Assembly (NCBI RefSeq): GCF_000719555.1
Contig: NZ_JOGX01000030.1
Coordinates: 1 to 64,000 of the forward strand
DNA from: Streptomyces sp. NRRL F-5727
GTDB taxonomy: Bacteria; Actinomycetota; Actinomycetes; Streptomycetales; Streptomycetaceae
Reading direction: 5' to 3'
Length of the DNA: 64,000 nucleotides
Within the stretch, counting starts at the first letter, position 1. Each line of letters begins with the position of its first letter. The notes beneath the pieces were generated by a model. That model had not been told where the DNA came from. It saw nothing but the letters and a program-made list of their open reading frames with translations, and did not search any database. The position numbers and the translations under genes are program-made. Shown here piece by piece: positions 6,254 through 11,886 of the stretch.

Positions 6254-6910
6254 TCACGATGCGGAATCCGCGTCCGCGCCCCGCGCCGGGGGCGTGAGGG
6301 TCTCGTCGACGAACTCCCGTACCTGCGCGAGGACCTCGGCCCGGCCGGTGCCGGGCAGGCCGACCGCGACGTGCACGCTGTAGCCGTCCAGCAGGGCGCG
6401 CATCCGGGTGGCGAAGCGGTCCGGGTCCACGGGCCGGAACTCGCCGCGCGAGACGCCCTCGGCGAGGATCGCGACGAGGTCCCGGTGCCAGGCGCCCTCG
6501 ATGGCGGCCTGGCGGGCGCGGGCGTCCGCGTCGGCGTTCTGCGAGCGGTTCCAGACCTCCAGCCAGAGCGTCCAGTGCGGGTCGCGCGGCCCGTCGGGCA
6601 CGTACACGTCGACGTATCCGTCGAGCCGCTCGCGGGAGGTCCCCGGTCCGGAGAGCAGCGCGCCCCGCTCGGCCCCGAGCCGCCCCTCGCTCCACTCCAG
6701 GGTCTGGAGCAGCAGCTCGTCCTTGGTACGGAAGTAGTAGAGGAGGTGTCCGCTGCTCATCCCGACCTGCCGCCCCAGCCCGGCCATGGTGAGCCCGTCG
6801 AGGCCGCGCTCGGCGACGGTGTCCATCGCCGCCGAGAACACCTCCTCGCGGGGCGGGGCGGCCTGGTTGCGGCGGCGGGGGGCGGGGGACGGGCTGCTGC
6901 TCTGACTCAC
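6254..6910 (-). CDS. TetR-family transcriptional regulator
   Basis: A 218-residue protein. The N-terminal helix-turn-helix (about residues 20-65) is typical: VFSAAMDTVAERGLDGLTMAGLGRQVG, then MSSGHLLYYFRTKDELLL. The C-terminal ligand domain (WTLWLEVWNRSQ...DGYSVHVAVGLPG) is BetI-like. It starts at GTG 6910, nine bases after the agmatine deiminase stop, and is therefore the last gene of the ureAB-ureC-agmatine deiminase operon. I infer that it binds the two TTGAGCGNCACTCNAA palindromes at 10347-10364 and 10417-10431 and so controls both its own operon and the permease. The inducer is unknown; a polyamine- or guanidine-like nitrogen compound is a reasonable guess. Confidence 0.9.
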   Translation of the reverse strand: MSQSSSPSPAPRRRNQAAPPREEVFSAAMDTVAERGLDGLTMAGLGRQVGMSSGHLLYYFRTKDELLLQTLEWSEGRLGAERGALLSGPGTSRERLDGYVDVYVPDGPRDPHWTLWLEVWNRSQNADADARARQAAIEGAWHRDLVAILAEGVSRGEFRPVDPDRFATRMRALLDGYSVHVAVGLPGTGRAEVLAQVREFVDETLTPPARGADADSAS

Positions 6911-6919
6911 TCGTACGTT

Positions 6920-7939
6920 CTACACCGCGGGCTGCTGCTGGGTGATGCAGTGGATGCCGCCGCCCGCCGCGAAGATCGTGCGGGCGTCGACCAGGACGAC
7001 CTCGCGGTCCGGGAAGAGGCGGCGGAAGATCTCGGCGGCGAGCTCGTCGTGCGGGTCGTCGAAGGCGCAGAGGATCACGGCGCCGTTGCACAGGTAGTGG
7101 TTGATGTAGGAGTAGTCGACCCACTCGCCCTCCTCGTCCCTGAGGACGGTGGGGGCGGGGACCTCGATGACCTCCAGGGGGCGGCCGTCGGCGTCGGTCT
7201 GGGCGCGGAGGATGTCCACGTACAGCCGGGAGCGGGCGTAGTCCGGGTGGTTCGGGTCCTGCTGGCTGTGGACGAGGACGGTGCCGGGGCGGGCGAAGGC
7301 GGCGACGATGTCGACGTGGCCCTGGGTGCCGTACATGCCGTAGTCGCCGGCGAGGCCGTGCGGCAGCCAGATCGCCTTGCGGGTGCCGAGCTTGGCGTGG
7401 ATCTCCCGCTCGACCTGCTCCCGGGTCCACTCGGGGTTGCGGCCGGAGCCGAGCTGGACGGTGTCGGTGAGCAGGACGGTGCCCTCGCCGTCGACGTGGA
7501 GGCCGCCGCCCTCGTTGACGAGCTCGCTGCTCAGCACGCGGACCCCGGCCGCGTCCGCGACATGGCGGGCGATCTTGGAGTCGTGCTCCCAGCGCGCCCA
7601 GTCCTGGGCGCCCCAGCCGTTGAACACCCAGTCCACGGCGGCCAGGGAGGTGCCGTCGGTGACGAAGGTGGGGCCGATGTCGCGCATCCAGGCGTCGTCG
7701 AGCTCCCGCTCGACCAGCTCGACGTCCTCGCCGAGGAGCGCGCGGGCGCCCTCCGCGTCGCCGGGGGCGACGACCATCGTCACCGGCTCGAAGCGGCGGA
7801 CGGCACGGGCGACGGAGGCCCACGCCCCGCGGGCCTCGGCGAGCTCCGCGGCGTCGGTGAAGGTGGCGTTGGGGCTCGGCCAGGCCATCCAGGTCCGCTC
7901 GTGCGGGGTCCACTCGGCGGGCATGCGGTACGAAGTCAT
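6920..7939 (-). CDS. aguA: Agmatine deiminase (agmatine iminohydrolase)
   Basis: A 339-residue member of the PPAD-like (guanidine-modifying) superfamily. The start is typical, MPAEWTPHERTWMAWPSP. Catalytic blocks are present: DDAWMRDIGPTFV, the His of QGHVDIVAAFARPGT, and the nucleophile C331 in GGGIHCITQQQP. Length matches the family. The enzyme hydrolyses agmatine to N-carbamoylputrescine and ammonia. The usual next enzyme, N-carbamoylputrescine amidohydrolase (AguB), is not nearby. The gene follows the urease-like alpha gene with an 11-base gap and precedes tetR, so it belongs to the urease-like operon. That context leaves open that its real substrate is a related guanidino compound. Confidence 0.9.
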   Translation of the reverse strand: MTSYRMPAEWTPHERTWMAWPSPNATFTDAAELAEARGAWASVARAVRRFEPVTMVVAPGDAEGARALLGEDVELVERELDDAWMRDIGPTFVTDGTSLAAVDWVFNGWGAQDWARWEHDSKIARHVADAAGVRVLSSELVNEGGGLHVDGEGTVLLTDTVQLGSGRNPEWTREQVEREIHAKLGTRKAIWLPHGLAGDYGMYGTQGHVDIVAAFARPGTVLVHSQQDPNHPDYARSRLYVDILRAQTDADGRPLEVIEVPAPTVLRDEEGEWVDYSYINHYLCNGAVILCAFDDPHDELAAEIFRRLFPDREVVLVDARTIFAAGGGIHCITQQQPAV

Positions 7940-7950
7940 GGAGGCGGGTC

Positions 7951-9633
7951 CTAGAGGAAGTAGAGGCGGTTCAGCGAGACGGAGTCGGCCGGCTCGGAGC
8001 GGATCGGGGAGCCGTCGAGCGAGACGAGGCCGGTGCGGTCGTCCACCTGGACGGAGCCGGTGCGGGAGTTGAGGAGCAGGTCGGCGGGGCCGATCCCCCG
8101 GGTGCCGCGCACCGGGACGCGGCGGCGCCGGGTCGGCATCCGGTCGCCGCCGAGGTCGACGGCGGCCTGGGCGACGAAGGCGACGGAGAGGTCCGCGGCG
8201 GTGGCGCCGTGGGCGCCGAACAGCGGGCCGAGGACGAGCGGTTCGCAGGTGTCGGTGGCGGCGTTGGGATCGCCCACGACCCCCCAGGCGGGGAAGCCGG
8301 CCTTCAGCACCATCTGGGGCTTGGCGCCGAAGAACTCGGGCCGCCACAGCACGATGTCGGCCAGCTTGCCGACCTCGACCGAGCCGATCTCGTGGGCGAG
8401 GCCGTGGGCGATCGCCGGGTTGATGGTGAGCTTGGCCAGGTAGCGCAGCACGCGCGCGTTGTCGTCGTGCGCGCCGTCGCCCTCCAGGGGGCCCAGCTCG
8501 GCCTTCATCTTCCCGGCCATGGCGAAGGTCCGGCGTACGGTCTCGCCGGCCCTTCCCATCCCCTGCGCGTCGGAGGAGGTGATCCCGATCGCGCCGAGGT
8601 CGTGCAGGACGTCCTCCGCGCCCATCGTCCCGGCCCGGATCCGGTCGCGCGCCATGGCGGCGTCGCCGGGGAGGTCGGTCTTCAGGTCGTGGACGGAGAC
8701 GATCATCCCGTAGTGCTCGGCGACCGCGTCGCGGCCGAAGGGCAGGGTGGGGTTGGTGGAGGAGCCGATGACGTTCGGCACGCCCGCCATCTTCAGGACG
8801 TTGGGGACGTGTCCGCCGCCGCAGCCCTCGATGTGGAAGGCGTGGATCGTACGGCCCTCCAGGACGGCGAGGGTGTCCTCCACCGACAGGCACTCGTTGA
8901 GGCCGTCGCTGTGCAGGGCGACCTGGACGTCGTGCTCCTCGGCCACCCGCAGCGCGGTGTCCAGGGCGCGGGTGTGGGCGCCCATGTCCTCGTGGACCTT
9001 GAAGCCGGACGCGCCGCCCTCGGCGAGCGCCTCGACCAGCGGCGCCGGGTCCGAGGAGGAGCCCCGGGCGAGGAAGCCGATGTTGACCGGCCAGGCGTCG
9101 AAGGCGTTGAAGGCGTGGTTCAGGGCCCAGGGCGAGTTGACGCCGACGCCCCAGACCGGGCCGAACTCCTGGCCGACGATCGTGGTGACGCCGCTGGCGA
9201 GCGACGCCTCCATGATCCGCGGCGAGAGCAGGTGGACGTGGGTGTCGACGGCGCCGGCGGTGGCGATGAGGCCCTCGCCGGAGACGATCGAGGTGCCGGT
9301 GCCGACGACGACCTCGACGCCGTCGAGCGTGTCGGGGTTGCCGGCCCGGCCGATGGCGTGGATCCGGCCCTCGCGGATGCCGATGGAGACCTTGCGGATG
9401 CCCTGGACGGCGTCGATCAGCAGGACGTTGCTGATGACGACGTCGCAGGTCTCGCGGACGGCGGCGGCCTTCAGGTGCAGGCCGTCGCGGGCGGTCTTGC
9501 CGAAGCCGGCCAGGAACTCGTCGCCGGGCTTCTGGGAGTCGGACTCGACCCGGACGACCAGCCCGGAGTCGCCGAGGACGACGCGGTCGCCGGCCCGGGG
9601 GCCGTGCACGGAGGCGTACTCGTACGGGTCCAT
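7951..9633 (-). CDS. Urease-like alpha subunit (orphan, altered active-site flap)
   Basis: A 560-residue UreC homolog. All nickel ligands are present by alignment to canonical urease: H132 and H134 (DTHVHLL), the carbamylatable K212 and H214 (GFKVHEDMG), H241 (LHSDGLNE), H267 (FHIEGCGGGH) and D355 (TSSDAQGMGR). The mobile flap differs: the canonical MVCHHL is IVSVHDL here, so flap Cys is V314, the catalytic His is kept as H315, and the next His is D316. The segment after residue 150 (GQEFGPVWGVGVNSPW) is also unlike ordinary urease. It overlaps the gamma-beta gene by one base (TGATG). No ureD, ureE, ureF or ureG is nearby. I call it a urease-family metallohydrolase whose substrate may not be urea. 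Confidence 0.85.
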   Translation of the reverse strand: MDPYEYASVHGPRAGDRVVLGDSGLVVRVESDSQKPGDEFLAGFGKTARDGLHLKAAAVRETCDVVISNVLLIDAVQGIRKVSIGIREGRIHAIGRAGNPDTLDGVEVVVGTGTSIVSGEGLIATAGAVDTHVHLLSPRIMEASLASGVTTIVGQEFGPVWGVGVNSPWALNHAFNAFDAWPVNIGFLARGSSSDPAPLVEALAEGGASGFKVHEDMGAHTRALDTALRVAEEHDVQVALHSDGLNECLSVEDTLAVLEGRTIHAFHIEGCGGGHVPNVLKMAGVPNVIGSSTNPTLPFGRDAVAEHYGMIVSVHDLKTDLPGDAAMARDRIRAGTMGAEDVLHDLGAIGITSSDAQGMGRAGETVRRTFAMAGKMKAELGPLEGDGAHDDNARVLRYLAKLTINPAIAHGLAHEIGSVEVGKLADIVLWRPEFFGAKPQMVLKAGFPAWGVVGDPNAATDTCEPLVLGPLFGAHGATAADLSVAFVAQAAVDLGGDRMPTRRRRVPVRGTRGIGPADLLLNSRTGSVQVDDRTGLVSLDGSPIRSEPADSVSLNRLYFL

Positions 9634-10331
9634 CAGTGGCCCTCCTCGTCGGTCGCGGTGCCCAGGTAGCCGCAGGCGGCCGCGCGGCGCAGCGCCTCCT
9701 CCTTCGCGCCGGGGGCGTCCAGCGGCCCGTCGACGAGGCCGGCGAAGCCGATCGCCACGCGTGCGCCGCCGATGGGCACGAGCCCGACCTCGGCGGAGCC
9801 GCCCGGGTCGAAGCGGAAGGAGGCGCCCGCGGGGATGGCGAGCCGCATGCCGTAGGCGGCGGCGCGGTCGAAGTCGAGGCGCGGGTTGGCCTCGAAGAAG
9901 TGGAAGTGGGAGGTGACGCTGACCGGGACCGTCGCCGTGTTCCGTACGGCGAGGGTGAGCGCGGGCTGCTGCTCCGGGTGGCCGGGGCCGGGCAGCAGCG
10001 CGCCGGGCGCGCCGGCGCCGAGCGTGCCTCCGCCGATCGGGTCGGTGACGACGGCGAGCCGGGAGCCGTCGTCGAAGACGGCCTCGACGTGCACCTCGGT
10101 CACCACGTCGGCGACGCCGGGCAGCACGTCCTCGGGGCCGAGGACGGAGCGGGCCGCCTCGATGGCCTCGGCGAGCCTCCGGCCGTCGCGGGCGGCCTCG
10201 CAGACGGTGTCCGCGATGAGGGCGGTCGCCTCGGGGACGTTGAGCCGCAGTCCGCGGGCCCGGCGGGCCCGGGCGAGTTCGGCGGCGCCGAAGAGCAGCA
10301 GCCGGTCGCGCTCGGTGGGGGTCAGTCGCAC
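9633..10331 (-). CDS. Fused urease gamma-beta subunit (orphan urease-like operon)
   Basis: A 232-residue fusion. Residues 1-98 are urease gamma (RLTPTERDRLLLFGAAELARARRARGLRLNVPEATALI, shown here only in outline). Residues of about 105-232 are urease beta (SHFHFFEANPRLDFDR, GMRLAIPAGASFRFDPG). Such fusions are known in some actinobacteria. The frame stays open upstream, but GTG 10331 has a strong GGAGG site 8 bases before it. A promoter (-35 TTGGAA, 17 bases, -10 TAGAGT) lies directly upstream and its -10 is inside a palindrome. It heads the operon gamma-beta, alpha, agmatine deiminase, tetR. The beta part carries an insertion-like Gly/Pro-rich loop (GGGTLGAGAPGALLPGPG) not seen in ordinary UreB. 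Confidence 0.85.
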   Translation of the reverse strand: MRLTPTERDRLLLFGAAELARARRARGLRLNVPEATALIADTVCEAARDGRRLAEAIEAARSVLGPEDVLPGVADVVTEVHVEAVFDDGSRLAVVTDPIGGGTLGAGAPGALLPGPGHPEQQPALTLAVRNTATVPVSVTSHFHFFEANPRLDFDRAAAYGMRLAIPAGASFRFDPGGSAEVGLVPIGGARVAIGFAGLVDGPLDAPGAKEEALRRAAACGYLGTATDEEGH

Positions 10332-10346
10332 GTCATACACCTCCTG

Positions 10347-10431
10347 TTTGAGCGACACTCTAAATGCTGGACGCAACGCTTCCAAGTATTGACGTGCCGG
10401 TCAGGCACAGGTCACATTGAGCGCCACTCAA
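10347..10431. promoter_or_regulatory. Divergent promoter with two matching operators (urease-like operon / NCS1 permease)
   Basis: Operator 1 (10347-10364) contains TTGAG-CGACA-CTCTAA. Operator 2 (10417-10431) is the perfect palindrome TTGAG-CGCCA-CTCAA. The minus promoter has -35 TTGGAA (10382-10387) and -10 TAGAGT (10357-10362), spacer 17; its -10 lies in operator 1. The plus promoter has -35 TTGACG (10389-10394) and a -10 near 10412-10418, touching operator 2. One repressor binding both sites would shut both directions. The co-operonic TetR is the obvious candidate. Confidence 0.75.
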
Positions 10432-10461
10432 AAATCCCCCTTCCGCTCCCCCGGAGGTCCC

Positions 10462-11886
10462 ATGGCAACGATCGAACAGCGCGGAGTCGACACCGTCCCC
10501 GAGGCCGAACGCACCAGCGGTCCCCGCGACCTGGTCGCGATCCTGCTCGGCTCCAACCTCTGCCTGGGGGTGATCGTCTTCGGCTGGCTGCCGGTCTCCT
10601 TCGGTCTCGGCCTGTGGGGCTCGGTGACCTCCGTGGTCGCGGGCACGGTCGTCGGCGTCGCCGTCACCGCCCCGCTGGCGCTGGTGTCCCTGCGTACCGC
10701 CACCAACCTCTCCACCTCCTCGGGCGCCTTCTTCGGCGTCCGCGGCCGGCTCGTCGGCTCGGTGGTGGGGCTGCTGCTCTCGCTGGGCTACACGGCGCTG
10801 ACCCTGTGGATCGGCGGCGACGTCATGGTGGGCACGCTCGCCCGGCTGACCGGCCTCTCCGCCGGCGACGGGGCGCACGCCGTCGTCTACGCGCTGCTCG
10901 CGGCCTGCACGGTGGTGGGCGCCGTGTACGGCTACCGGCTGCTGCTCCGGCTGAGCAAGGCGCTCGCCGTCGGCATGACCGTCCTGCTGGCGGTCGGGGT
11001 CGTGGCGTACGCCGGTGACTTCACCGCCGCGCCGGTGCCGGACACCCCGTACCTGCTCGGCTCCTTCTGGCCGACCTGGCTGCTCTCGGCGGTCGCCGCC
11101 GGGCTCAGCGGACCGGTCGCCTTCATCACCCTGCTCGGCGACTACACCCGGTACGTCTCCCCCGCCCGGCACAGCGCGCGGAGCGTCTGGCGGGCCACCT
11201 GTCTGGGGCTGCTCGTCGGCCTGCTCGTGCCGCAGCTCTTCGGCACCTTCACGGCGCTCGCCGCCCGCGCGGGCCTCGACTACGCGGGGCCGCTGGTCGC
11301 CGCCTCCCCCGCCTGGTACCTGGTCCCGCTGCTGCTCGCCGCCACCGCCGGCTCGGTCGGCAACGCCGGTCTGATGCTCTACTCGATGGGCCTGGACCTG
11401 GACGCGATCCTGCCCCGGGCCACCCGGGCGCGGGCCACCCTCGTGGTGGCGGCGGTCGCCACCGGCTTCGTCTTCCTCGGCCACTTCGCCTCGGACGCAC
11501 AGTCGGCGATGACCTCGTTCGTGCTGCTCCTGACGGCCATCGGCACGCCGTGGGCGGTCATCACCCTGATCGGGCACGTCCGCTGCCGCGGGGAGTACGA
11601 CCCCGAGGCGCTGCAGGTCTACAACCGGCGCTCGCGCGGCGGGATCTACTGGTTCTCGGCCGGCTGGCACCCGCGCGCCACGCTCTCCTGGGCGATCGGC
11701 GCGGCGGTGGGCCTGGCGGGCGTGTCGACCCCGCTGTACGAGGGTCCGCTGCTGGCCCTGACCGGCGGGATCGACTGCAGCTTCGTGCTCTCGGGAGTCG
11801 TGGGCGGCGTGCTGTACGCGGCCCTGACGCCGCACAGGGCTTCCGGGACCGTGACGGCCCCGGAAGCCCTGGCGACGACGGAGTGA
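10462..11886 (+). CDS. NCS1-type (cytosine/purine/hydantoin-like) permease
   Basis: A 474-residue integral membrane protein with about 12 hydrophobic helices. The N-terminal block RDLVAILLGSNLCLGVIVFGWLPVSFGLGLWGS and the loop LLGDYTRYVSP are characteristic of nucleobase:cation symporter-1 carriers. The cytoplasmic segment HVRCRGEYDPEALQVYNRRSRGGIYWFSAGWHPRA also fits. NCS1 carriers import cytosine, uracil, allantoin, hydantoins or similar nitrogen compounds. The start at ATG 10462 has GGAGG five bases upstream. It is divergent from the urease-like operon and shares its operator pair, so it probably imports that pathway's substrate. Its TGA stop touches the ilvE stop with no base between. Confidence 0.85.
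   Translation: MATIEQRGVDTVPEAERTSGPRDLVAILLGSNLCLGVIVFGWLPVSFGLGLWGSVTSVVAGTVVGVAVTAPLALVSLRTATNLSTSSGAFFGVRGRLVGSVVGLLLSLGYTALTLWIGGDVMVGTLARLTGLSAGDGAHAVVYALLAACTVVGAVYGYRLLLRLSKALAVGMTVLLAVGVVAYAGDFTAAPVPDTPYLLGSFWPTWLLSAVAAGLSGPVAFITLLGDYTRYVSPARHSARSVWRATCLGLLVGLLVPQLFGTFTALAARAGLDYAGPLVAASPAWYLVPLLLAATAGSVGNAGLMLYSMGLDLDAILPRATRARATLVVAAVATGFVFLGHFASDAQSAMTSFVLLLTAIGTPWAVITLIGHVRCRGEYDPEALQVYNRRSRGGIYWFSAGWHPRATLSWAIGAAVGLAGVSTPLYEGPLLALTGGIDCSFVLSGVVGGVLYAALTPHRASGTVTAPEALATTE

Follow-up and report, generated by a model that had tools for sequence, protein, structure and literature searches.

The first 64,000 nucleotides of contig NZ_JOGX01000030.1 of Streptomyces sp. NRRL F-5727, referred to as the window, contain between positions 6254 and 11886 a urease-like gene pair, ure(AB) and ureC, in one operon with a gene of the agmatine deiminase family and a tetR gene, and opposite to a divergent permease gene. 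The features of the locus are:

10462..11886, forward strand: divergent NCS1-type permease (PF02133, 290.6 bits)
10417..10431: operator-like palindrome 2, TTGAGCGCCACTCAA
10348..10362: operator-like palindrome 1, TTGAGCGACACTCTA
9633..10331, reverse strand: fused urease-like gamma-beta subunit, ure(AB) (NF009671, 322.4 bits, above the cut-off; PF00547, PF00699)
7951..9633, reverse strand: alpha subunit of urease type (ureC paralogue) with intact metal ligands and a changed pocket
6920..7939, reverse strand: enzyme of the agmatine deiminase family (PAD_porph, pentein) with a variant pocket (PF04371, 385 bits)
6254..6910, reverse strand: TetR/BetI-type regulator, final gene of the operon (PF13977, 82.6 bits; PF00440)

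The gene order is ure(AB)-ureC-deiminase-tetR, with the permease gene diverging across 130 bases. The likely start of ure(AB) is the GTG at 10331, which is preceded by AGGAGG 8 bases upstream, and its end at 9633 overlaps the ATG of ureC by one base. The gap between ureC and the deiminase gene is 11 bases long, that between the deiminase gene and tetR 9 bases, and the permease starts with the ATG at 10462. The tight five-gene arrangement described in a first-pass annotation of the sequence is therefore correct, with all genes at their described positions. Against the urease equivalog TIGR01792 (urease_alph) the alpha subunit reaches 642.7 bits, below the cut-off of 680, and against the broader subfamily NF009686 742.8 bits, above the cut-off of 354. 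For the permease PF02133 is matched, although the score against the curated ncs1 model TIGR00800 is only 41.1 bits (cut-off 353.1).

The alpha clade and the nickel-helper genes

Alpha subunits were compared using 130 sequences from the fetched loci, of which 115 are distinct over the core region. They comprise 82 members of the clade of the window alpha, defined by C276, A361 and G363, and 33 other sequences. Residue numbers, which we take to be those of the Klebsiella (K. aerogenes) urease, were anchored on the canonical sequence of the same genome. In a midpoint-rooted tree of 62 rows chosen out of the 130, the window alpha falls within a clade of 36 rows (support 100/99), separate from 17 canonical rows (100/98); the tree program flagged meeting long branches in the L071 and L145 groups, one long branch at L163 and an unusual composition of L146.

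The metal ligands H134, H136, K217, H246, H272 and D360 are kept in 82/82 clade and 33/33 other sequences, and H219, H320 and R336 are likewise intact in both sets. As the ligands are kept down to about 52% identity, the alignment argues for a working metalloenzyme and not a relic. The pocket around them is changed throughout the clade: C276, A361, G363 and a stretch of 20 residues at 154-178 are each present in 82/82 sequences, position 222 is M in 64, T in 14 and L in four and never the canonical Trp (0/82), and at position 319 Cys is found in three and V, A, S or T in 79/82. Among the 33 other alphas, A occupies position 276 in 29 and S position 361 in 31; position 363 has A in 23 and G in 10, position 222 has W in 30, and position 319 has C in 24 and V in nine; their 154-178 stretch has 24 residues in 22 sequences, 20 in five, 13 in three, 21 in two and 23 in one. 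C276 and A361 together are unique to the clade, whereas G363, the shorter loop and the loss of Cys319 also occur outside it. For the mobile-flap Cys319 and the substrate loop we assume the roles that they presumably have in canonical urease.

Two further observations were made on the alphas. The diverged sequences L145, L035 and L033 have a stretch of 13 residues where canonical ones mostly have 24, and L145 has a PF04371 neighbour. In the pairs L093/L094 and L095/L096, each from one genome, the two alpha copies lie in different neighbourhoods and do not differ in the core region, which points to a recent copying event between them.

At least 99 of the 150 genomes sampled from the host family carry a clade member, a few of them as fragments. 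Matches at 52-87% identity were found in further families in a class sample of 394 genomes; in a phylum sample of 296 genomes, nothing outside the host family matched above 52% identity. A pattern scan of public genomes confirmed at least 557 stretches encoding relatives, for which the clade signature was not checked one by one; 80 of them include Streptomyces, Kitasatospora, Streptacidiphilus, Nonomuraea, Sphaerimonospora and uncultured Actinomycetes.

The first-pass annotation had stressed the absence of ureD, ureE, ureF and ureG near the pair. No UreD, UreF or UreG is indeed encoded in the window (UreE was not searched for), and none of the three was found within 6.5 kb of ureC in any of 78 clade loci. 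However, the genome contains a canonical ureABC-F-G-D cluster on contig C13, where UreG, UreF and UreD were each found once and where the only other ureC of the genome is 47% identical to the window alpha. Therefore, the missing neighbours are a weak clue for this strain.

A search with TIGR00101 (E up to 1e-20) left 19 of the 150 host-family genomes without a UreG match, and 11 of these 19 carry a clade member (G171, G306, G360, G381, G383, G395, G401, G420, G427, G432 and G434), which corresponds to 11 of the at least 99 carriers. UreD and UreF were searched in 21 genomes, and neither was found in seven of the 11 UreG-less carriers (G306, G360, G383, G401, G427, G432 and G434, three of them single-contig). 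Of the other four, G395 and G420 have a UreD match, G381 has a UreF match and G171 has only a 23-bit UreD remnant. The last genome also encodes a partial second alpha with an internal TAG (G171:C1:447829-448932; 45% identity to the window alpha, residues 5-363), and its orphan pair is intact. The comparison group consists of 45 family genomes whose best matches include another ureC but no clade member. In only two of these UreG was not found, the 670-contig draft G362 and G400 with its separate alpha of the L072 type. From these counts, loss of UreG does not accompany loss of the clade enzyme. The pair thus occurs in family genomes in which UreG, and in seven of them also UreD and UreF, was not found, a point that the first-pass annotation had proposed to check, but its own host is not among them.

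The L072-type alpha of G400 belongs to a second, separate urease-like ureAB-ureC unit, which was seen in L071, L072 and L141 with genes for Amidohydrolase_3, an MFS transporter and a PucR-type regulator. Two of the three carriers of this unit (G306 and G400) gave no UreG match.

These counts bear on one alternative explanation, an ordinary nickel urease with urea as its only substrate that is matured in trans by the canonical UreDFG. It is consistent with the helper genes on C13, with the treatment of the related SCO5525-5526 as urea-utilising (in the relevant part of PMC3293853) and with the counting of ure(AB)C among functional cluster types (in the corresponding part of PMC5489568). It does not account for full-length clade members in genomes for which none of UreG, UreD and UreF was found, nor for the 21 of 29 carriers outside the host family in which UreG was not detected, and we consider it improbable.

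Partner deiminase, neighbouring genes and operators

The genome has no PF04371 match other than the window deiminase. The earlier label "agmatine deiminase" for this enzyme is to be read as a family name, as the score against the AguA equivalog TIGR03380 (316.1 bits) is under the cut-off of 381.8 and the amine-binding position is changed. Like AguA/AIH it belongs to PF04371, and the catalytic Cys, His and Asp as well as the guanidine-binding Asp are kept in comparison to solved agmatine deiminases. In plant AIH, as described in the relevant part of PMC6447857, Asp220 holds the terminal amine of agmatine and the loop 291-314 closes the site. We aligned 83 deiminase sequences, of which 49, the window enzyme included, form a near group at ≥48% identity to it. 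Unlike in AguA/AIH, the position of Asp220 (MtAIH numbering) is Gly in 49/49 of the near group; the stretch just before it is three or four residues longer there, and the alignment next to this insertion is less reliable. Position 222 is Arg in 43, Gln in five (including the window enzyme) and Ser in one. In the 34 paralogues of lower identity it is Asp in 32 and Asn in two, and position 220 is Glu or Asp in 13, a gap in 19 and Gly in two. The gate loop is shorter in the rows inspected. With the amine-binding residue lost, the substrate may be a guanidino compound that has no terminal amine and perhaps carries an acidic tail; given the pocket change, agmatine itself is kept only as a possibility. 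Judged by positions 220 and 222, the deiminases encoded next to the pair in L156 and L157 resemble ordinary AguA.

Gene neighbourhoods were counted in the 78 clade loci with wide flanks; 60 wide-flank loci of the host family had been picked to include the UreG-less carriers and second copies, some of the carriers being drafts. The gamma-beta gene adjoins ureC in 78/78 loci. In 51/78 loci a PF04371-type gene is found no more than 300 bp from ureC, and in 64/78 no more than 6.5 kb from it; such a gene is also found beside the more distant alphas L133 and L145 from other families of the phylum. Amidohydrolase_3 genes are present within 6.5 kb of ureC in 13/78 clade loci, nine of which have no deiminase, and neither gene lies within this distance in L100, L150, L152, L153 and L161.

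In the host family two layouts were distinguished. Type I corresponds to the arrangement in the window, with an NCS1, MFS, APC or SSF transporter in some loci, whereas in type II the transporter is an Opp/Dpp-type ABC system and as many as four PF04371 paralogues are present. The type II loci L084, L087 and L090 have three or four such paralogues, accompanied by a protein kinase and by genes for TetR regulators and Opp/Dpp-type transporters. Outside the host family Pot-type (PotD/PotB-like) genes are near six of 20 clade loci (L154, L155, L160, L163, L164 and L166; the low-G+C loci L163 and L164 were read by tblastn), and two scanned PotD-like proteins are under the equivalog cut-offs. The NCS1 permease had been taken as a partner pointing to the substrate. 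As MFS, APC, SSF, Opp and Pot transporters replace it elsewhere, it says little about the substrate and was dropped as a clue.

The variation also bears on the idea that the complex cleaves a different amide, in a cyclic or heterocyclic nitrogen compound, with the ring-opened product handled by the deiminase in a preceding or following step. The NCS1-type permease of the window, the Amidohydrolase_3 neighbours and the molybdo-hydroxylase-like neighbour in L100 would fit such a substrate. However, the transporter differs in type between loci, and the enzyme that most often accompanies the pair is of a guanidine-modifying family, so that we give this idea a slim chance.

Two loci have unusual neighbours. 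In L100 (L100:2678-11099) the clade ureAB-ureC lies just downstream of a molybdo-hydroxylase-like fusion, together with SDR, carboxyltransferase and Opp-type transporter genes, and its enzyme perhaps acts on a different substrate class. In L157 a CDF-family cation efflux gene (L157:4941-5912; MntE-like, below the cut-off) adjoins the clade ureC, possibly a hint as to the metal. The genes that flank the operon in the window recur in 17/60 and 19/60 of the fetched loci and are presumably cimA and ilvE.

The matching operators described earlier were recovered as two similar palindromes between the permease gene and ure(AB). Copies of TTGAGYGNCRCTCAA lie at 10348 (one mismatch) and 10417 (no mismatch), both inside the 130-base divergent gap, and a third copy is absent from the 64-kb window in a search allowing up to two mismatches. 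The chance expectation for this search is a mean of 0.33, and two copies were reached in 5/100 shuffles. A TetR resembling that of the window is encoded in 39/60 fetched loci. In relatives a site scoring at least 12/15 against the palindrome was found upstream of ureAB in 38/38 scored clade loci with a TetR of the window type and in 6/18 clade loci without it, compared to 25/1160 trials with shuffled regions (two loci were unscorable and two non-clade loci were omitted). The palindromes go with the presence of the TetR.

A candidate pathway and its precedents

In the agmatine route, as described in part of PMC9397018, the nitrilase AguB carries out the step after deimination. AguB was not found above its cut-off in any of 22 carriers tested, and no dedicated ureido hydrolase was seen there. 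This makes the urease-type enzyme with its reshaped pocket, encoded beside the deiminase, a candidate for the second step. We propose, at about even odds, that ure(AB)C is a urease-fold binuclear amidohydrolase of its own clade that assembles without UreD, UreF and UreG and cleaves the ureido product of the partner deiminase. We infer the substrate, the order of the steps, the metal and the self-assembly. In favour of the proposal are the separate clade with its intact ligands and changed pocket, the carriers in which UreG was not found (11 of at least 99 in the host family and 21 of 29 outside it, against two of 45 in the comparison group), the linkage to the deiminase family and the Pot-type genes near six loci outside the host family.

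In the proposed pathway a guanidino compound would be imported, and the deiminase would convert its guanidino group to a ureido group with release of ammonia. The urease-like complex would then hydrolyse the mono-substituted urea to the amine, CO2 and a second ammonia, and the TetR would repress the operon and the permease until the compound or its product binds. Metal insertion may be spontaneous, as it is in other carbamyl-lysine amidohydrolases. An extension of this proposal would be that an entire actinobacterial branch within the urease family has left urea, being chaperone-free and possibly non-nickel, and hydrolyses the substituted ureas made by the deiminase, replacing AguB in a guanidine-to-amine route. 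This we put forward only tentatively.

Several points weigh against the proposed pathway. Every catalytic residue for urea hydrolysis is kept, and urea may be a substrate of the clade enzyme. UreG is present in 88/99 family carriers and could act in trans. In the 29 carriers outside the host family the search covered UreG alone; the eight with UreG include six of the seven from one family, and of the 29 carriers 20 were read as loci and have the clade signature, the other nine being assigned by identity only. No deiminase lies within 6.5 kb of ureC in 14/78 clade loci, the nine with Amidohydrolase_3 among them. An AguB-like nitrilase below the cut-off is encoded in 12/22 carriers, although that of the window's own genome is in an operon with a dihydropyrimidinase and an aminotransferase. 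The solute-binding protein of the type II locus L082 has its best matches to NikA and peptide-binding models, far under the cut-offs (NikA 124 versus 600 bits), and from this weak resemblance a nickel supply by that transporter is possible. A structure prediction of the alpha subunit from an 11-row alignment was discarded (mean predicted local distance difference test, pLDDT, of 45), and the pocket change is read from sequence alone.

Some of these points also fit a second urease that acts on urea and is self-maturing or uses another metal, with the deiminase and the permease just feeding the same regulon. All ligands as well as H219, H320 and R336 are kept in the clade, and the type II binding protein is weakly NikA-like. 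There are also precedents. The ureABC genes of Bacillus subtilis, compared here by gene content, are likewise structural genes without accessory genes, and the part of PMC8600894 devoted to them describes a urease of very low intrinsic activity. For this reason a missing UreG is no proof of another metal. Helicobacter has a second urease-type complex too, UreA2B2, which is reported to use an iron cofactor and to be regulated by nickel and NikR; the window promoter carries TetR-type palindromes. However, neither the clade-wide pocket changes beside the substrate site nor the close linkage to a guanidine-modifying enzyme are expected of a back-up urease, and we regard this explanation as unlikely, though not negligible. 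A match of the window alpha in the PDB is 3qga, named beta 2, which we take to be the iron form of Helicobacter urease.

Like the canonical, Klebsiella-type nickel urease UreABC, the complex has alpha, beta and gamma subunits with all metal ligands and catalytic residues. In difference to it, the clade stands apart in the tree, has a changed pocket without Cys319 in nearly all members, and is present where UreG was not found. The inducible uptake-and-hydrolysis pathway for a substrate other than urea or in addition to it, as first suggested, is partly supported by the distinct enzyme, the inducible-looking operon with a guanidine-modifying enzyme and the UreG-less carriers, but urea is still a possible substrate.

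The orphan pair as such is already published, as a urease. The orphan ure(AB)C of S. coelicolor (SCO5525-5526) and S. avermitilis (SAV2715), without accessory genes in the cluster as in the window, was noted in 2008 (in part of PMC2492869), and the 2017 count mentioned above included this cluster type. In 2012 SCO5527 and SCO6414 were listed as homologues of the Pseudomonas arginine decarboxylase (ADC) pathway, in a section of PMC3293853; the AguA-type homologue SCO5527 is numbered next to the orphan pair, just as the deiminase lies beside that of the window. The same source describes arginine or ArgR as without effect on these genes. In an excerpt of PMC4991794 SCO5526-SCO5524 are tagged nrdABS, which conflicts with the urease labels in PMC2492869 and PMC3293853 and which we take, unchecked, for a slip. 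A GlnR review names the canonical ureA (SCO1236) as a target and does not mention the orphan pair in the part concerned, and PMC5839063 lists an ArgR site at SCO1236 and no SCO552x tag. In the open-licence PMC literature we found no work that treats the orphan pair as other than a urease or ties it to the deiminase.

Urease is a textbook case of a metalloenzyme: it depends on a dedicated, GTP-driven insertion of nickel and acts on nearly one substrate alone. A clade that keeps the metal site, often without a helper gene, and has its pocket rebuilt would allow testing what the helpers are for and what determines the substrate range. Among the 120 nearest proteins listed, those named by their source are called urease subunit alpha. 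Because clade relatives bear this name, urea use by streptomycetes may be overstated where it is claimed from genomes.

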